A stretch of DNA of 20,852 nucleotides from a virus: IMG/VR virus record IMGVR_UViG_3300037541_001043, positions 1 through 20,852 of that record; one strand, given 5' to 3'. Under the pieces are notes generated by a model. The model was not told the DNA's origin. It saw only the letters and a program-made list of their open reading frames with translations, and searched no databases. This document shows, in pieces, positions 1-19,265 of the stretch (positions within the stretch are counted from its first letter, which is position 1; each line of letters begins with the position of its first letter). The position numbers and the translations under genes are program-made.

Positions 1-297
1 ATTGCCTGTTCCATACCAAAAATAATAGCTTATTGCGCCATCACCTAGCGAGTAAACAGAGTGCATATTTGATTTATACGAACATTCAAATCCCAACCGC
101 ATCAACACCTCTTCGGATAGGGGGATGGGTCGATGCCATTCATTGAAACCTTCCTCGTTTTCTGAAACCTGTTGTAAATCCTCCCAATCAATGTTTGTTT
201 CAACCCATTCATCAACGTGTTCTTCGACTGGGCCAATGTTGTCGATTAAGTGGTATTGAATTGTGTTTCCAATCCTTAGTTCTGTTGCTTTTATCAT
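1..297 (-). CDS. ELRIGN-type small phage protein, 3' end cut by window edge
   Basis: The minus-strand frame opens at ATG 297-295 and runs off the left edge with 99 codons and no stop. It begins MIKATELRIGN and has a later HRPIPLSEEVLMRLGFE segment. Proteins with an N-terminal ELRIGN(W/Y)V and a PIPLTEEWLLKFGF-like motif are, from memory, very common small proteins of unknown function in Bacteroidetes phages and mobile elements; this one matches that layout. Its start codon overlaps the stop of the upstream gene (ATGA-type overlap), so it is the last visible member of the minus-strand operon that begins with the packaging genes. No catalytic motif is visible. The family call is good; the function is unknown. 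Confidence 0.8.
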   Translation of the reverse strand, partial: MIKATELRIGNTIQYHLIDNIGPVEEHVDEWVETNIDWEDLQQVSENEEGFNEWHRPIPLSEEVLMRLGFECSYKSNMHSVYSLGDGAISYYFWYGTGN

Positions 298-551
298 GGC
301 TTCAAAAGTGTTTCAAGTTTGTTCTGTTGCAAGTCGCGTGACCATTTGGCTGATTCTATAAAATAAGGTTCATTCAGATACGTGACATCCTGTTCATCTA
401 TCTCCTCATCCGTCACCTTCACTAGCTCAAACACTTCGGCTAGGGCTTGGGTGAAATCATGTAGATTCATTTTGCTCCCATTATCGTAAGGATAGCTATA
501 CTTCTCAAATATCTTTTCTATCTCGGTCATGGCTTGGGTGGTATCACTCAT
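294..551 (-). CDS. Small acidic hypothetical protein (85 aa)
   Basis: An 85-residue acidic protein starting MSDTTQAMTEIEKIFEKYSY. It is predicted largely helical, with no membrane segment and no metal-binding motif. I do not recognise the family. Evidence that it is real is positional: it overlaps the preceding 48-aa gene by 8 bp and its stop overlaps the next start (294-297), the tight packing of a phage operon. It belongs to the accessory block downstream of the terminase genes. Confidence 0.65.
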   Translation of the reverse strand: MSDTTQAMTEIEKIFEKYSYPYDNGSKMNLHDFTQALAEVFELVKVTDEEIDEQDVTYLNEPYFIESAKWSRDLQQNKLETLLKP

Positions 552-690
552 AATGCGATTCGTTTATTTCGTTTAGATTCTTATTTGCTGCCTCGTTGAT
601 GATCTCAACAAATCGACTGAATGTGATTTGCTCTTTCATGTATTCTTTGAAAGCGGGGTAAACATCTGCAACACGGATCAGTTTTTTCAT
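544..690 (-). CDS. Small hypothetical protein (48 aa)
   Basis: The frame can be extended upstream to about position 789, but that extension lies entirely inside the neighbouring membrane-protein gene. The start at ATG 690-688 gives MKKLIRVADVYPAFKEYMKE and overlaps the upstream stop TGA (689-687) as ATGA, which strongly favours this start. The 48-residue product is mixed-charge, helical and soluble. Residues such as FKEYMKEQITFSRFVEIINE suggest an amphipathic helical hairpin. Function is unknown. It is translationally coupled to both neighbours. Confidence 0.6.
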   Translation of the reverse strand: MKKLIRVADVYPAFKEYMKEQITFSRFVEIINEAANKNLNEINESHYE

Positions 691-881
691 TTTTTGAGGT
701 ATTCGATTAACCAATAAATACCACCAATTACATAACAGAAGCCTATTAAAACCAATAGTGCGCCAATGTACATTGGTAAAACTCGCCAATCACCTAAGTA
801 TTCATGGCTCAATAATGATCCAAAGGCAGTCACAAGTACCACGAGAGCGATAGCAGCTAAAACTCTTTTAAATATTTCCAT
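687..881 (-). CDS. Small two-TM membrane protein (64 aa)
   Basis: Starts MEIFKRVLAAIALVVLVTAF and ends in IEYLKK. There are two hydrophobic segments (about residues 5-23 and 36-58) around a short polar loop HEYLGDWR, so it should be an inner-membrane hairpin. Size and topology would fit a small holin or superinfection-exclusion protein, but neither is shown by a motif, and a clearer holin candidate lies at 18040-18645. It is preceded by a 31-bp gap after the DUF1508 gene and coupled to the next gene through ATGA. Confidence 0.6.
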   Translation of the reverse strand: MEIFKRVLAAIALVVLVTAFGSLLSHEYLGDWRVLPMYIGALLVLIGFCYVIGGIYWLIEYLKK

Positions 882-912
882 TTTCTTTATGATTCATATT
901 CTGTTTTGATGA

Positions 913-1122
913 TTACTCCTGATGCGATCCGTGTACCTGTGGATCATAGCCGTTGCGCTTTGCATTGTCAATGCACATCTGACGTTTGGTATATCCTTCG
1001 GTGCTTGCGCCAACAACTCTTCCGTTGCGGCTCTTGCGGGTCCAACGGTATTCGTCTTGTGCATTTTTCTTGTGGAAGATAAATGTGTCGGTGTTCCCGA
1101 GTTTGGGTTTGGTAGTGCTCAT
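913..1122 (-). CDS. DUF1508 (YegP-like) domain protein
   Basis: A 69-residue protein whose core FIFHKKNAQDEYRWTRKS, then NGRVVGASTEGYTKRQ, matches the YegP/DUF1508 repeat: an aromatic strand, YRW(R/T), N-G, then GY(T/S) followed by a short helix. The family forms small alpha/beta domains, often in tandem. This has only one copy, and its biochemical role is not known. The gene begins 2 bp after the stop of the preceding gene, so it is part of the same minus-strand operon. The family assignment is by motif reading only. Confidence 0.75.
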   Translation of the reverse strand: MSTTKPKLGNTDTFIFHKKNAQDEYRWTRKSRNGRVVGASTEGYTKRQMCIDNAKRNGYDPQVHGSHQE

Positions 1123-1124
1123 AA

Positions 1125-1475
1125 TTATTTCTGTTGTTTTGATTTGCGTAGTTGTGAGATCGTTGGAATGTTTACCCCAATCAATCGGTAGAACTTTCGG
1201 GCTGCACTGTCTTCATTGAGTGCCTGTAGATATAGGTATCCTTCCTCCATCTGCACCTTGGCATGTAGGGATACGTGCTGCTTATGGTTGATGCTTTGCA
1301 TAACCGGTTCCACGGATTCCATTGGAACATTGGTAACCTCACCTGTTTCAATTTTGAACTTCCAAACTTTTAATCCCGGTATAAACTTTTTTTGATCTAG
1401 CAGCTTTGTCTTCTTCTGCTCTGCTTGGATCACATGTTCAACCGGTACCGTTATGTTGTGCGGATCTAGTTTCAT
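1125..1475 (-). CDS. Hypothetical protein (116 aa)
   Basis: Starts MKLDPHNITVPVEHVIQAEQ, with a basic C-terminus SQLRKSKQQK. Mixed alpha/beta composition, no signal peptide and no TM segment. I do not recognise a family. The start ATG (1475-1473) overlaps the preceding stop (ATGA), and the stop is 2 bp before the DUF1508 gene, so it is part of the compact operon downstream of terL. The central stretch VWKFKIETGEVTNVPMES hints at a beta-hairpin. No function is proposed. Confidence 0.65.
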   Translation of the reverse strand: MKLDPHNITVPVEHVIQAEQKKTKLLDQKKFIPGLKVWKFKIETGEVTNVPMESVEPVMQSINHKQHVSLHAKVQMEEGYLYLQALNEDSAARKFYRLIGVNIPTISQLRKSKQQK

Positions 1476-1690
1476 TGCTTCTTTAGGTGATAGGTTTTTA
1501 TCTGGCGGAAGCTTTCATAGTTCTTGTACTTGCGGTACCCAAATCTTTTTTGATATGCGTCTTCGCAAGATTCGTAGGCTTCGGTGTAATTTTTGCAGTG
1601 CTTCAGTAGTTTAAACCATGCGGCAATGAATCCACCTGGTTTAATCATTTTCATTACTTCCTGTTCTGTGAGTATTGTTTCAGTGGCCAT
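1472..1690 (-). CDS. Small conserved-looking hypothetical protein (72 aa)
   Basis: Starts MATETILTEQEVMKMIKPGG and contains EAYESCEDAYQKRFGYRKY followed by a YESFR segment. Short proteins with an E-A-Y-E...(F/Y)G.R(K/R)Y..Y.SFR ending are, from memory, widespread in Bacteroidetes phages and mobile elements with no assigned role. It begins 2 bp after the terL stop and overlaps the next gene by 4 bp, so it is cotranscribed with the terminase. It is probably a soluble helical protein; function unknown. Confidence 0.65.
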   Translation of the reverse strand: MATETILTEQEVMKMIKPGGFIAAWFKLLKHCKNYTEAYESCEDAYQKRFGYRKYKNYESFRQIKTYHLKKQ

Positions 1691-1692
1691 TA

Positions 1693-3411
1693 TTAGAATG
1701 AGGTTATTGAGTAGTCTTCTGGAATTGTAGTATTGGATTGGGAGGCTTCGAAATTGTAATTGGCTTTGGCGATGATGAGCGATACAACTCCATCGATCTT
1801 ATTGTTGGATTTCTTCTTGGTGGGTTTTATGTTTCCGGCTGCATCGGTATCTATTACCACGTTTCCAAATTGCCAACGCATACATGGGTCTGTGTCGATG
1901 GCACATCGATTCAGGTATAACTTCCGCTCGAGATCCTTGGTAGCTTCGGAGAGTCCTATAAAGCCTTGTCCTATTGGATTAAGGCTATGGCCATCGTCTG
2001 TAAGTTCTTGACCAAGCTGCGAAAAGTTATGTCTATCGTAGCCAATGGATTTGATCCGAAATTCAGAGGCTCTGTCGCTGATGAACTTGCGGACAAAAGC
2101 ATAATCTGTAGCATTGCCCGGAGTAGTGAGAATGATTCCATCCCTTGCCCATTGTATCCATGGATGTCTGTCGTTGTTGGATTTCAATTCAGTGATCCTT
2201 TCTTCCGGAACCCAGCACCATGTTTTGCTGTGCTCGATGCCATCTATAATCCATAAAAGGGTAAATGCTGTGAGATCTCGCACCGATGCAAGGTCCAATC
2301 CACCATAGCACTCATGTTGTTTGAGCATGGTGTAATCGAGTGACCTCATATTGTTTTTCACAAGATCGTCTGGTATCCAAACCGACTCTGCTCCTACCCA
2401 AATATTGAGGTGCTTGGTTTTGAAATTGGTGATCTTCGTGCCACCTTCATTCACTGCTTGGTTGTACTCTTCCCTTAATCGATTGAGCGTAACCGAGTGG
2501 CTAATAGATGGATTGGCTTTAATCCAAGCGGCTTCGTCATTCCAATCATCTTCTTCGTCTATGCCGTAGTACACTCCGAACATGGAAGGATCGTCAATCT
2601 TTCCATCGAGTAAGTCGAATAGCAGATCGTTTTCTTTTTTGCATGGACCGGTAGTATCGAATCCGGCTGTGGTGATATATAGAATTATCGGCTCATTGCG
2701 CGCGATGGTTCCCGCTTTCAATCCATTGTAAACCGAGCTATCCTTGTGTACGTGGCCTTCGTCTATAAGTGCACCATACACGTTGATACCTTCAAAAGTT
2801 CCTGAGTCTGATGCCAGAGGTTTGAGTGTGGCAAATGTGCTTGGTATGCTTATTACCTTTTCGCCAACCTCTATAAATGGGGCTACTGCCGGTGAGCTAC
2901 GCACAATGTCTTGGCACATGCTAAAGGCAATTCGTGCCTGATCTCTTGCAGTGGCAGCACAGTACAATTCCGGTTTGGGCTCTGCGCTCATGAGCATGTT
3001 CAGTAGAAGTCCTGCGCCCAATGTTGTCTTGCCGTTTTTCTTAGGAATGAATACGTGAACGTACTTGAACCTTCGGCGTAATTCTGTTTTCTTCTTACCC
3101 GGTTCATGGAGTAAAAAGCCATAGAGATTCCAGATGATAAACTGCTCCCATGGAAGTAATTTGAAACTCTTCCCGGCATAGTTTCCATGTGGGTGGCGAA
3201 GAAACTTGGGGAACCAATCTACCATCTCGGAGGCATATTTGTAATCGAATATCCATCCGCGCTCTTGCATCTGTTGCAGATCATCTAGGTAGCGCTGGCA
3301 TGCTTGCTTGGTGCGTTTGCATGAAATGATTTCACCGGATACAATGTCTTCGGCATACCTGTGTGCAGGATGCTTTCTTATTGTAGATATGCCGGGAATG
3401 GATTGGCTCAC
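1693..3411 (-). CDS. terL: Terminase large subunit (TerL, YmfN/Terminase_1-like)
   Basis: The ATPase/nuclease motor that translocates DNA into the prohead and cuts the concatemer. At 572 residues it is the usual length. The N-terminal ATPase shows Walker A PKKNGKTT (residues 123-130), the KNGK(S/T) form typical of this family, a Walker B ALIDEGH (214-220, with D217 and E218) and a coupling motif YITTAG (245-250). The C-terminal RNase-H-like nuclease has its first acidic residue in GGLDLASVRDL (D373), a second in the IGYDRHNF segment and a third in NNKIDGVVSLI near the end. It overlaps terS by 4 bp and heads a tail of small genes. It lies far from the portal and on the other strand, which is unusual for an HK97-type phage. 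Confidence 0.97.
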   Translation of the reverse strand: MSQSIPGISTIRKHPAHRYAEDIVSGEIISCKRTKQACQRYLDDLQQMQERGWIFDYKYASEMVDWFPKFLRHPHGNYAGKSFKLLPWEQFIIWNLYGFLLHEPGKKKTELRRRFKYVHVFIPKKNGKTTLGAGLLLNMLMSAEPKPELYCAATARDQARIAFSMCQDIVRSSPAVAPFIEVGEKVISIPSTFATLKPLASDSGTFEGINVYGALIDEGHVHKDSSVYNGLKAGTIARNEPIILYITTAGFDTTGPCKKENDLLFDLLDGKIDDPSMFGVYYGIDEEDDWNDEAAWIKANPSISHSVTLNRLREEYNQAVNEGGTKITNFKTKHLNIWVGAESVWIPDDLVKNNMRSLDYTMLKQHECYGGLDLASVRDLTAFTLLWIIDGIEHSKTWCWVPEERITELKSNNDRHPWIQWARDGIILTTPGNATDYAFVRKFISDRASEFRIKSIGYDRHNFSQLGQELTDDGHSLNPIGQGFIGLSEATKDLERKLYLNRCAIDTDPCMRWQFGNVVIDTDAAGNIKPTKKKSNNKIDGVVSLIIAKANYNFEASQSNTTIPEDYSITSF

Positions 3412-8715: not shown

Positions 8716-9012
8716 ATGAGTACAGAGAATCATGCTCTCCTGGAGGACGAGCGTCCAATGGAAGGAATCACCATAACGATGCTTAAAAAAGCAAAATTTC
8801 AACAGCGCTTTTTGGAAGACAATTCCGGATCGTGGTGGGTTCGAAAGATCAATCATAAGTATCTAGGCGCTTTAGAAATAACTGTGGATACCGATTGGAT
8901 AACTATCACATTGATCGATAGCAAAGATCCCGGCAATGCTTATCTCTCCAGAAAACATTCCGGGCATAACGACATACGCAGTACCATCCTGTGGATAACT
9001 CAAAAGCCATGA
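8716..9012 (+). CDS. Hypothetical protein (98 aa)
   Basis: The frame is open from 8674, but ATG 8716 follows the stop of the previous gene with an A-rich leader and is the likely start: MSTENHALLEDERPMEGITI. The core WWVRKINHKYLGALEITVD plus WITITLIDSKDP looks like a small beta-sheet fold. The stop overlaps the start of the replication initiator-like gene as ATGA (9009-9012), so the two are translated together. No family is recognised. Confidence 0.7.
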   Translation: MSTENHALLEDERPMEGITITMLKKAKFQQRFLEDNSGSWWVRKINHKYLGALEITVDTDWITITLIDSKDPGNAYLSRKHSGHNDIRSTILWITQKP

Positions 9013-9746
9013 GAAACCCATATACAATATCTTCGATACTTCGACAGACTAAGAACCTTACAGCGGCAGAGGTGGGTGTTTACGCTCGTCTGATGGACTT
9101 CCTAAAGTCCAAACAATCTTTGCCCGGTAAAAAAGGTGAGGTTGCACGGATAGCCGGTGTTCAAAATACACATATCAATCGATATAATATGGTGATCCGG
9201 ATGGCGCAAGAAGTGCACTCCAAATGGTTAACCGTTCAAGGGTTAACCGTTCAAAGGGTAACCATTGACAGTAAGTTAAAGCTATCAGAATCAGTAAGTA
9301 CAACTGATGAAAACCCCGCGAAAGTTTTTGATAAAGTCGAAAACCCTCTATATCTATCTAATAATATATTATTAGAGATAGATAATAAACAAAACCAAAC
9401 GAAATCTGAACTTAAACACGAGCAACTTCCGCTGCTGCGCCCGAGCGAAATGTTGGCGGCTGCGCCTACGAAGGTTGAAGCCATCATGAAAAACCACGGA
9501 GTTCCACCATCGGTGCGTGATGAAGAGTTCAAAAAGTTTGATGCGCATCTGGAAGGCCGGTTTGTGAAAGACGCAAACCATGCGGTAAACCTTTGGAATT
9601 ACTGGTGCACGAATTACCGAAAGAAAGCCATGGATGCTTCTGGTCAAAAAAATTCGAACGGGGCTGCGGCACAATCAGCTGATGTCAGGTTTAAGCCACG
9701 CGGTAACAGTGCCCAAAAATTCGAACAAAGTGGGGTAAAACTTTAG
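9009..9746 (+). CDS. Replication initiator / helicase-loader-like protein (O-like)
   Basis: A 245-residue protein directly upstream of the DnaB gene. Start ATG 9009 overlaps the previous stop. Residues 1-75 look like a winged-helix DNA-binding domain (TISSILRQTKNLTAAEVGVY then GEVARIAGVQNTHINRYNMV). A low-complexity linker covers about residues 76-140. The C-terminal part contains FKKFDAHLEGRFVKDA followed by a WNYWCTNYR motif, like the tryptophan-containing helicase-interaction segments of phage O/DnaT-type proteins. The linker DNA holds three 15-bp tandem repeats and an AT-rich palindrome, the layout seen in lambda O and P22 gene 18. Role: binding its own origin and loading the phage helicase; inferred. 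Confidence 0.7.
   Translation: MRNPYTISSILRQTKNLTAAEVGVYARLMDFLKSKQSLPGKKGEVARIAGVQNTHINRYNMVIRMAQEVHSKWLTVQGLTVQRVTIDSKLKLSESVSTTDENPAKVFDKVENPLYLSNNILLEIDNKQNQTKSELKHEQLPLLRPSEMLAAAPTKVEAIMKNHGVPPSVRDEEFKKFDAHLEGRFVKDANHAVNLWNYWCTNYRKKAMDASGQKNSNGAAAQSADVRFKPRGNSAQKFEQSGVKL
9226..9270 (+). repeat. Three tandem 15-bp repeats (candidate iterons)
   Basis: GGTTAACCGTTCAAG (9226-9240) is followed by a copy with one difference (9241-9255) and a third with about 11 of 15 matches (9256-9270). The core GGTTAACC is a palindrome. The repeats are in frame and encode LTVQG-LTVQR-VTIDS in the linker of the initiator-like protein. In lambda-type phages the initiator binds such repeats within its own gene. 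Confidence 0.75.
9351..9384. repeat. AT-rich near-perfect palindrome (candidate unwinding element)
   Basis: Outer arms TATCTATCT (9351-9359) and AGATAGATA (9376-9384) enclose a perfect 14-bp palindrome AATAATATATTATT (9360-9373), with two unpaired bases on the right. The 34 bases contain only five G or C. It lies 80 bp after the tandem repeats, inside the same gene, where an origin's DNA-unwinding element would be expected. Confidence 0.7.
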
Positions 9747-9756
9747 GTGAAAAATT

Positions 9757-11223
9757 ATGAGTGCGAACAAACCAAGAACCAAAAAGGAAAAACAGTTGGC
9801 TGATACCCGACAACACGCGGAACTGAATGTGTTGGGCAAAGTAGCCCCACAAGAATCGGAACTAGAGGCTGTGGTGCTCGGTACGATGATGCTAGATCGG
9901 GTTGGTCTAGGTATCGGGCTTAGTCTGCTGCAACCGGATCATTTTTATAAACCTGATCACAGGGATATCATGAGGGCGATTACTGACCTTGCGCAGGAAG
10001 GTGGCAAGGTTGACATCATGACTGTTTGTGCATGGTTAAAAAAGGACGGCACCCTGATGGCGTGTGGTGGACCGGCTTCGATAGCAGAACTTACAGGTCG
10101 CGTTGCTTCCAGCGCTAATCTGGAACAGCATTGCCTTTTGATGCTTCAAAGTTGGATGAAGCGTGAAGCAATTCGTGTGGGTATGGAGGCTGTGAGTAAG
10201 GGTTATGATGATACCGAAGATGCGTTGGATCTGATCAGTGATATCCAAAGTCAGTTGCTTAGTGTGAGCGGAGTGCTTAACATTCGTCACGCGAAAAGTA
10301 GCAGTGATGGGATGGAAGATTACATGAAGCAAATACTTACACCGCGCGAAAACAATTTGAGCGGTGTAGATACCGGGTACAGTCACTTCAATAAGTTTAC
10401 CGGTGGATGGCAGCGATCTGATGTGTACGTGATAGCTGCAAGACCGGGGGTAGGTAAAACTGCTTTTGGTTTGAACTTCGCTTGGCGGTGTGCTGCAATC
10501 GGAAATGCCAAGGCATTATTCTGCTCATTAGAGATGCCGGATTATCAAATTAAAACAAGGCTTCTGTCGATGGTAAGTACATGTACCTACCAGAATATTC
10601 AGAATCAGTATTACACTGCATGGGAAAAGGAGCAGATACAGAATCATGGATACCGTGCGTTTCCAAAAGACCTATGGTTGGATGATACTCCTGCGCTTAC
10701 CCCATCCCAATTGCGGAGTAAGATTATACACATGCGCAGCAAGGTTGGTTGTGATATTGTTTTTGTGGATTACCTACAGCTCATGACCGATGGGAAGAAG
10801 CAAGGTCCGTTCACTAACCGCGAGCAAGAAGTGTCCAGTATAAGCAGACAACTGAAAGCCATTGCGATGGAGTTCAATATTCCGATCGTGGCCATGGCTC
10901 AGTTGAATCGTGAGAGTACAAAACGTGCAGGCGGTAAACCATTGCTTTCAGATCTGCGTGAATCGGGCAGCATCGAGCAAGATGCGAGTACAGTAATGTT
11001 CCCGTGGAATCCACATGAGAATAAAGTGGATAAAGAAAACGGGGAGCCCTATGATCCCAATACAGTTTTCATGCTTGTCCAGAAGCACCGCAATGGTGCG
11101 CTAGATGATGTTCCGTTTTATGTGGTGAAGCGAACAAGTAGAGTGCTTATGCCTGGTGAGGATAGTAAAAATATCTTCCATGTGAACCATGAAGAAAATG
11201 ATAATCGTGATGAAGGGTTCTGA
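9757..11223 (+). CDS. dnaB: Replicative DNA helicase, DnaB family
   Basis: A 488-residue hexameric 5'-3' helicase for phage DNA replication. The N-terminal DnaB domain spans about residues 30-135 (VAPQESELEAVVLGTMMLD, the usual P-x-(S/N)-x-E-(A/S)-E opening). The RecA-like C-terminal domain has Walker A ARPGVGKTA (228-236), Walker B VFVDYLQL (335-342), the glutamine-containing motif AMAQLNRE (379-386), LSDLRESGSIEQDA (397-410) and the arginine-finger region KHRNG (443-447). All key residues and full length are present. It starts 10 bp after the initiator-like gene. Encoding its own helicase implies the phage does not depend on recruiting host DnaB. Confidence 0.97.
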   Translation: MSANKPRTKKEKQLADTRQHAELNVLGKVAPQESELEAVVLGTMMLDRVGLGIGLSLLQPDHFYKPDHRDIMRAITDLAQEGGKVDIMTVCAWLKKDGTLMACGGPASIAELTGRVASSANLEQHCLLMLQSWMKREAIRVGMEAVSKGYDDTEDALDLISDIQSQLLSVSGVLNIRHAKSSSDGMEDYMKQILTPRENNLSGVDTGYSHFNKFTGGWQRSDVYVIAARPGVGKTAFGLNFAWRCAAIGNAKALFCSLEMPDYQIKTRLLSMVSTCTYQNIQNQYYTAWEKEQIQNHGYRAFPKDLWLDDTPALTPSQLRSKIIHMRSKVGCDIVFVDYLQLMTDGKKQGPFTNREQEVSSISRQLKAIAMEFNIPIVAMAQLNRESTKRAGGKPLLSDLRESGSIEQDASTVMFPWNPHENKVDKENGEPYDPNTVFMLVQKHRNGALDDVPFYVVKRTSRVLMPGEDSKNIFHVNHEENDNRDEGF

Positions 11224-12511: not shown

Positions 12512-12533
12512 CGGTCTGGTAGCAATGACCGCT
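12510..12533. repeat. 7-bp hairpin at the end of the DUF3850 gene
   Basis: AGCGGTC (12510-12516) and GACCGCT (12527-12533) are inverted arms with a 10-base loop, starting in the stop codon of the DUF3850 gene. No U-run follows. It abuts the larger attC-like repeat and may be part of the same element. Confidence 0.5.
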
Positions 12534-12658
12534 AACGGTTTGCGTGTATAAGAAGTGGCGGATTAGAACTCCGAAACTTTCAGCAAACGCAGAACTTAAT
12601 TAGAATACTAAAACTTTAAATTAACCGAGAACCCGCCATTTTTTATACACGCTGTTAG
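12532..12658. repeat. attC-like long imperfect inverted repeat
   Basis: A left arm of CTAAC (12532-12536) plus a 20-base block at 12542-12561 pairs with a right block at 12633-12652 (2 mismatches) plus GTTAG (12654-12658). The arms are separated by a 5-base bulge on the left and one base on the right, so the folded single strand has extrahelical bases. The terminal CTAAC/GTTAG, total length of about 127 bp and asymmetric bulges are the hallmarks of integron attC sites, though the full 7-base attC consensus is not met. From memory, very similar repeats are scattered in Bacteroidetes genomes next to small hypothetical genes. Confidence 0.65.
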
Positions 12659-12687
12659 TGGCTGGGCTTTTCACAAATCTAAATAAA

Positions 12688-12900
12688 ATGTTTAACAACA
12701 ATCAAATTCAAAAATTAGAAATAGACCAAGAGAAGAAAAAACTTTATGTCTATTACGTTCAGGACAACTCACATTTAATGAGCAATCCTCCACCACCTCC
12801 AAGTTATTACAGAGAGGTTTATTCTTTCGATAATTTAGAATTTATTGAAAAGGAATACGCAAAAGTAGAACGTAGTTTTGAAAAAGTAACGTGGTCATAG
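12688..12900 (+). CDS. Small AT-rich hypothetical protein (70 aa), cassette-like
   Basis: An in-frame GTG at 12658 would start inside the inverted repeat, so ATG 12688 (MFNNNQIQKLEIDQEKKKLY) is chosen. The product has a beta-hairpin-like front (KLYVYYVQDN), a PPPPPSYYREVY turn and a helical end. Its form resembles KTSC-type or other short domains of about 60 residues found in mobile cassettes, but no family is firmly recognised. It is isolated, AT-rich and flanked by GTTAGTGGC (12654-12662) on the left and the near-inverted GTCACTAAC (12905-12913) on the right, consistent with one integron-type cassette. Confidence 0.6.
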   Translation: MFNNNQIQKLEIDQEKKKLYVYYVQDNSHLMSNPPPPPSYYREVYSFDNLEFIEKEYAKVERSFEKVTWS

Positions 12901-12937
12901 CCTTGTCACTAACTTGGGGATTGGAGAAGTTTTAATA

Positions 12938-12967
12938 AAAAAGCCCGGTACGTTTACCGGGCTTTTT
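12938..12967. terminator. Bidirectional intrinsic terminator before the late genes
   Basis: AAAAAGCCCGGTA (12938-12950) and TACCGGGCTTTTT (12955-12967) form a perfect 13-bp stem with a CGTT loop and T/A runs on both sides. It closes the early/cassette region on the plus strand and isolates the structural operon, which must then have its own promoter between 12968 and 13129. Confidence 0.9.
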
Positions 12968-13052
12968 CACTTTTAATTACTTAAACCAAAACGAAAATTA
13001 TAACATAACAAATGTGTGCATTCTTCTTTGATAAAGAATAGACCTGATAAAA

Positions 13053-13093
13053 AAAGGTAGAATTTCTACCTACAGAAAGGTAGAATTTCTACC
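13053..13093 (+). repeat. Duplicated 18-bp block containing a 15-bp palindrome
   Basis: AAAGGTAGAATTTCTACC occurs twice (13053-13070 and 13076-13093), 23 bp start to start with a 5-base spacer. Each copy contains GGTAGAA-T-TTCTACC, a perfect 7-bp inverted repeat around one base. The pair lies 37 bp before the portal start, in the intergenic segment that must hold the late promoter, so it is a likely operator for a late-gene regulator. No convincing TAnnTTTG box with correct spacing was found next to it. Confidence 0.8.
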
Positions 13094-13129
13094 CCTGTTT
13101 AGCTTTTTTGAAGTATACTATTGTGCCCG

Positions 13130-18746: not shown

Positions 18747-19265
18747 ATGAAAGCAGAAGTACAACTTGTAGGATTTGAAGAGGCTAAAGAGCTATTCCGG
18801 AAACTTCCGGAGGCTGTTAGCAAGAACATTCTGCGGGGTGCCCAGCGCAATGTACTTAAGCCTGTGTTAAATGATATGCGCAACCTAGCGAAGATTCGGA
18901 CCGATGTGAAGTCGGGAAGATACCTACGCAGCATTGATTTTAAAGCGCTGAAAGCATTGAACACTACTGTAGCGAGTTTAGTGGGTTATCGCTATGGCAC
19001 GCTGGGTGCTCCGCATGCTCATCTAGTAGAGGCAGGAACCAAGCAGCGTAGGTTAAAGAAGCCTCGCGTGCTGACTTTCGTTTTGCCATCCGGCGAATCT
19101 GTAACCGCTCGCGTAACCAATACGGGTGTGATGCCTGCTTATGAGGTAATGAATGACGCGATCAATCTAAATAGAGCTGAGGTAGAAAAGAATTTTCCGG
19201 CAGAAGTGGGTAGGTCCATTGATCGGGTTGCAAAAAAATACGCAAAAAAATACGGCAACTTATGA
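18747..19265 (+). CDS. HK97 gp10-like head-tail protein
   Basis: 172 residues. Begins MKAEVQLVGFEEAKELFRKL, typical of the family (V-x-G-x-x-E-(A/L)-x-x-x-(L/F)-x-x-L-P), and contains KSGRYLRSIDFKAL (the G-x-L-x-x-S-I element) and APHAHLVEAGT (88-98, the (Y/P)-H-A-x-(L)-V-E-x-G-T motif). The C-terminus is basic and helical. In siphophages this protein joins the tail to the head or completes the tail end. It starts 102 bp after the holin-like gene with the tRNA-like sequence in between, and overlaps the next gene by 4 bp. Confidence 0.9.
   Translation: MKAEVQLVGFEEAKELFRKLPEAVSKNILRGAQRNVLKPVLNDMRNLAKIRTDVKSGRYLRSIDFKALKALNTTVASLVGYRYGTLGAPHAHLVEAGTKQRRLKKPRVLTFVLPSGESVTARVTNTGVMPAYEVMNDAINLNRAEVEKNFPAEVGRSIDRVAKKYAKKYGNL

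Follow-up and report, generated by a model that had tools for sequence, protein, structure and literature searches.

Replication origins that lie inside a phage gene and carry direct repeats have been established experimentally in lambda and the Stx phages (PMC7466680), in SPP1, where oriL is found in gene 38 (PMC6316719), and in TP901-1 and Tuc2009 (PMC8965321). This kind of origin is already known from lambda, P22, SPP1 and some lactococcal phages, while the instance that we describe here, in a 20,852-bp stretch of viral DNA (the window), is new. We propose that positions 9226-9388 are probably a phage replication origin of the lambda O/P22 gene 18 type, situated inside the gene of its own initiator. 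This reading supports in substance the candidate origin put forward in a preliminary description of the same DNA. We observe directly the repeats, a minimum of duplex stability, the gene order and a layout that recurs in other dnaB phages.

Lambda O and P22 gene 18 served as the positive controls of our array test. In lambda O, the array is significant (p=0.003), the repeats occupy 0.39-0.43 of the gene and the stability minimum lies 2 bp past them; in P22 gene 18, the corresponding values are p=0.017 and 0.45-0.51, with the stability minimum at the repeat end. Measured by one and the same method, both genes thus carry iterons and an AT-rich region mid-gene, as the preliminary description had stated.

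In the window, the candidate iterons form an array of three tandem 15-bp repeats on the plus strand at 9226-9270: iteron 1 (9226-9240, GGTTAACCGTTCAAG), iteron 2 (9241-9255, GGTTAACCGTTCAAA), which matches iteron 1 at 14/15 positions, and a degenerate iteron 3 (9256-9270, GGGTAACCATTGACA), which matches iteron 2 at 11/15. The array and its palindromic core had been reported at these coordinates, which proved right. Iterons 1 and 2 are centred on the palindrome GGTTAACC, whose only two occurrences in the window are both in the array (0.28 expected), and an imperfect inverted repeat of 14 bp, AAnGGTTAACCnTT (9223-9236), has iteron 1 as its core. Tandem Repeats Finder ranks 9226-9270 as the highest-scoring array of the window. 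When synonymous codons were shuffled within gene 9009-9746 (n=2000), with protein and codon usage held constant, the match between copies 1 and 2 was equalled in 3/2000 shuffles and that of all three copies in 0/2000, and when every period between 9 and 30 bp was admitted, the test gave p=0.0005. The array therefore exceeds what the protein sequence and codon usage give. It is located at 0.30-0.36 of the gene length, between the two domains of the candidate initiator. Pairs of GGTTAACC at 15-bp spacing also turned up in four stretches elsewhere in a scan of our collection; these are unrelated and mostly intergenic, and we set them aside as chance occurrences.

The repeats are in frame and encode W-L-T-V-Q, G-L-T-V-Q and R-V-T-I-D, so that the pentapeptide repeat noted earlier is borne out. 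Such a pattern could also arise, without any DNA function, if 15 bp had recently been duplicated in tandem and in frame within a disordered linker, the palindrome then being a coincidence: the period is a multiple of three, copies 1 and 2 are nearly identical in both DNA and protein, linkers are tolerant, and comparable arrays are found in 6/244 other genes of the same phage loci in our survey (see below). We nevertheless regard this explanation as improbable, given that iteron 3 is better preserved in DNA (11/15 bases, with the core retained) than in protein (1/5 residues) and that the array falls in a class of genes about half of whose members carry arrays, together with the least stable DNA of the window. 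The spacing itself counts against an origin: 15 bp is in frame and corresponds to no integral number of helical turns, whereas 11 or 22 bp is commoner.

In a nearest-neighbour scan of all 20,852 bp, duplex stability over 40 bp is lowest at 9349-9388, which we consider a candidate DNA unwinding element; the least stable 60 and 100 bp are 9346-9405 and 9321-9420, respectively. This minimum begins 78 bp after the array end, a distance that argues against the origin reading, as the two elements adjoin in lambda and P22. The 34-bp AT-rich palindrome of the preliminary description, 80 bp past the last repeat, is found at the position and with the gap that were claimed (9351-9384; 16-bp arms, a 2-nt bulge and no loop). 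Under the search rules used, it is the best palindrome in the whole window, it was equalled in 1/2000 synonymous shuffles of the gene, and its DNA-fold z-score is -2.8. In relatives, the best arms downstream of the repeats measure at most 10 bp, and we have accordingly dropped the palindrome as a conserved part of the origin. AT-richness near the repeats, unlike the palindrome, is common to the relatives, and the earlier proposal needs trimming on this point. The palindrome is peculiar to the window phage, and in our reading it is a side effect of the AT-rich element or, at the very most, an accessory to it.

The symmetric GGTTAACC cores would also suit the sites of a dimeric regulator, and the repeats could then be an operator at which the protein or a repressor controls transcription of the replication genes, rather than an origin. 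A sigma-70-type match at 9337-9365 even overlaps the AT-rich stretch, though such matches occur at background frequency. This alternative appears very unlikely to us: the repeats are inside the gene and not at a promoter, and the combination of array, stability minimum and dnaB is the pattern of known in-gene origins. Autoregulation, for its part, could coexist with origin function.

The gene that contains these elements is an open frame on the plus strand (9009-9746) encoding a candidate replication initiator of 245 aa, with an N-terminal DUF1376-like region, a linker and a helical C-terminal domain. The N-terminal region may be a winged-helix domain of DUF1376-like type. PF07120 (DUF1376) matches residues 7-64 with E=4e-4, only suggestively, as its 21.2 bits fall below the curated cut-off of 30.1 bits, and the same part gives weak matches to "primosomal protein" in PHROGs. 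In a single-sequence AlphaFold2 model, residues 143-209 form the sole confident domain, which is helical (pLDDT ~80), while the N-terminal domain has pLDDT <50; Foldseek returned no significant structural neighbours of this model. The C-terminal domain is weakly similar (17 bits) to the C-terminus of a protein that begins with a Lin1244_N domain and is encoded just before dnaB in contig L034. No O-family match to the 245-aa protein was obtained in Pfam, PHROGs or NCBIfam. The term O-like origin, used in the preliminary description, thus holds for the architecture but not for protein homology, where we see no lambda O match and only the weak one to DUF1376.

Directly downstream, 10 bp past the stop of gene 9009-9746, begins the phage dnaB replicative helicase gene (9757-11223, plus strand, 488 aa; PF03796 E=1.4e-70, PF00772 E=1.9e-21, PHROG 19). 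The repeats and the palindrome are therefore inside the gene just before dnaB, as first described. The locus has the architecture of an in-gene origin: iterons between the coding parts of two domains, an easily melted tract near the iterons and a helicase gene directly after the initiator gene.

From lambda (PMC7466680), SPP1 (PMC6316719) and TP901-1/Tuc2009 (PMC8965321), we infer how binding, opening and DnaB loading, and with them the start of replication, would proceed at 9226-9388. Probably in dimeric form and through its N-terminal domain, the 245-aa protein would bind the three iterons centred on GGTTAACC. The bound array would then strain the neighbouring AT-rich DNA at 9349-9388 and lead to its melting, and the single strand so exposed would receive the phage DnaB, the product of the next gene, by way of the helical C-terminal domain.

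GC skew, which is uninformative here, shows no clear switch at 9226-9388, a point against the origin reading. DnaA boxes show no excess. If the origin were elsewhere, the most plausible site would be the AT-rich intergenic stretch at 12900-13120, which has two tandem 23-bp units: two copies of TAAAAAAAGGTAGAATTTCTACC are found at 13048-13093, between the preceding gene and that of the portal, and among 100-bp stretches of the window 12972-13071 ranks second in instability. Each of these units, however, forms a hairpin, and the minus strand gives a terminator-like match; the units are present in two copies only, lie away from the replication genes and have no core in common with 9226-9270. We give an origin at this site only a slight chance, and a second origin, as with oriR in SPP1, would not exclude the first. 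Two other elements of the window may be mentioned here. One is an imperfect hairpin of ~130 bp at 12529-12661 (ends CCGCTAAC...GTTAGTGG, 23-nt inner arms, DNA-fold z -3.0), which sits just before an 80-aa ORF at 12658-12900 and has copies of 70-79% identity in Bacteroidota chromosomes, with matches of any length in 16/296 sampled genomes. Its form suggests a mobile palindromic element, of the integron attC-like or another type, and the motif CACTAAC recurs at ~12906, past the ORF. The other is a perfect 12-bp tandem duplication, GCAAAAAAATAC, at 19230-19254, in the 3' end of gene 18747-19265.

The 245-aa protein has one full-length homologue among the sequences searched, on IMGVR_UViG_3300043567_001519, and the 10,735 bp fetched around that gene are identical to the window. 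Searches of IMG/VR (with whole, N-terminal and C-terminal queries), INPHARED and 395 Bacteroidota genomes yielded no diverged homologue, which counts against the origin reading; a match in L185 was rejected, being a 12-residue stretch in an unrelated protein. A separate search for DUF1376 in 296 Bacteroidota genomes found two, one of which (L190) has a heptamer-like linker array. The identical contig reaches ~1.8 kb further left and encodes a tyrosine integrase, and the phage is therefore probably temperate. The integrase matches PF13102 and, at the borderline, PF17293, domains that we take to be associated with Bacteroidota. Together with a repeat element that the window shares with Bacteroidota chromosomes, this integrase type supports the earlier assignment to a Bacteroidetes phage. 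When window positions 1-3000 were used as the query, the match to this contig started at base 301, bases 1-300 being different or rearranged.

As the family of the protein itself offered no comparison, we compared genes by their position immediately ahead of dnaB. Cellulophaga phage phi39:1 has there, directly before dnaB (gp42), the gene of gp41, an HTH_36 protein, with three mid-gene repeats of 21-22 bp (core GACAAAATTGTC) and directly after them an AT-rich stretch coding for IYSINNTINT. Like the window, this is a Bacteroidota phage with a gene for an HTH protein before dnaB, three linker repeats, whose core is itself an inverted repeat (GACAA-AA-TTGTC), and AT-rich DNA close behind them; unlike the window, its protein is HTH_36 rather than DUF1376-like and its spacing is 21/22 bp. 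Three relatives of gp41 (59, 45 and 41% protein identity) each have 3-4 repeats of different sequence at a spacing of 22-23 bp, mostly the out-of-frame 22 bp, and in the family as a whole the repeats are found at 0.38-0.52 of the gene. A 22-bp spacing shifts the frame from each copy to the next, which indicates that selection keeps the DNA and not the protein. The expectation that repeats should vary in sequence while keeping their position is thus upheld in this parallel family. No origin feature is among the annotated features shown for the gp41-gp42 region. We found no paper on in-gene origins of Bacteroidota phages in the open literature searched, itself a part of the literature, and their documentation in these phages is new as far as we have searched.

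The nearest phage to the window by structural genes and dnaB is a Bacteroidota contig, L197, with similarity in portal, terminase and capsid. Its gene before dnaB has only a weak 11-bp TCCGA array (p=0.15), followed by an A-rich run, and this speaks against the origin reading. The gene looks like a different type of initiator. This would fit a joint replacement of initiator and iterons, which one weak case does not show.

To place these observations in a wider context, we surveyed 80 viral and 80 genome loci around dnaB, recovering the upstream gene in 131, and called arrays at a synonymous-shuffle p<=0.01 in the genes of suitable length (62 viral, 46 genome). Significant arrays are present in 32/62 viral genes just before dnaB, in a sample that was unclustered and contains some related matches (e.g., L056/L057/L061 and L046/L074/L075), versus 0/46 in the genome loci, a set unsorted as to host or prophage dnaB and apparently made up mostly of the former. 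Such arrays are present in 6/244 of the remaining genes of these viral loci. The viral arrays have periods mainly of 10-12, 15 and 20-23 bp and are mostly located at 0.35-0.65 of the gene. Variable sequence at a fixed position is also borne out statistically across dnaB phages. Some viral arrays are microsatellite-like, and the iteron reading need not hold for all of them. In 15/34 cases, the start of the gene's least stable 40-mer lies in the interval from 20 bp before the array end to 150 bp after it, versus 25% expected by position alone. The 15-bp spacing of the window also occurs in TP901-1 and in contig L026. In L094, the gene before dnaB has a 15-bp in-frame array of TGAAGGGAACGGAAC extending over more than 100 bp (gene positions 398-502), a strong further candidate for an in-gene origin. 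In L023, the gene before dnaB has about five 22-bp repeats (L023:2367-2474) with alternating half-sites GAACACTCA and GCACCCTCA, and the least stable 40 bp of that gene are within 20 bp after them.

A broader proposition, to which we assign even chances of being right, is that dnaB phages with unrelated initiator families (DUF1376-like, HTH_36, Lin1244_N and others) regularly have their origin where the gene before dnaB codes for a linker, that initiator and iterons move as one self-addressed cassette, and that the helical repeat of DNA (11/22 bp), more than the reading frame, determines the iteron spacing. The survey suggests that the origins of many uncultured dnaB phages could be read from sequence alone, by way of a shuffle-significant array in the gene before dnaB, which would allow origins to be placed in viral contigs and replicons to be built for poorly tractable hosts.

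When compared to the described systems, the window shares with SPP1 oriL direct repeats and an AT-rich unwinding element in an initiator gene as well as a DnaB-type helicase of the phage's own (PMC6316719), whereas SPP1 has a separate helicase loader, gp39, and the second origin oriR, neither of which was identified in the window. The replisome organizer gene of TP901-1, ORF13, is likewise reported to contain a direct-repeat origin (PMC8965321), and its best array has the same 15-bp spacing, at 0.38-0.42 of the gene; the protein, in contrast, is DnaD-like, the array taken alone falls short of significance (p=0.086), and the next gene is not dnaB. In lambda O, the mid-gene iterons are imperfect inverted repeats, and the 40 bp of lowest stability in the gene come after them (PMC7466680), as in the window, but there are four iterons of 18 bp at 20/24/23-bp spacing with an adjoining AT-rich tract. 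Moreover, lambda loads the host DnaB through P, while the window phage encodes its own DnaB. In P22 gene 18, the repeats are spaced at 24 bp and the AT-rich region adjoins them, so that the window differs from both lambda and P22 in its 15-bp spacing and in the 78 bp that separate its repeats from the stability minimum. Finally, P22 resembles the window in that its origin is annotated inside the initiator gene, at ~0.43-0.61 of its length, and in that the next gene, gene 12, encodes a DnaB-type helicase.
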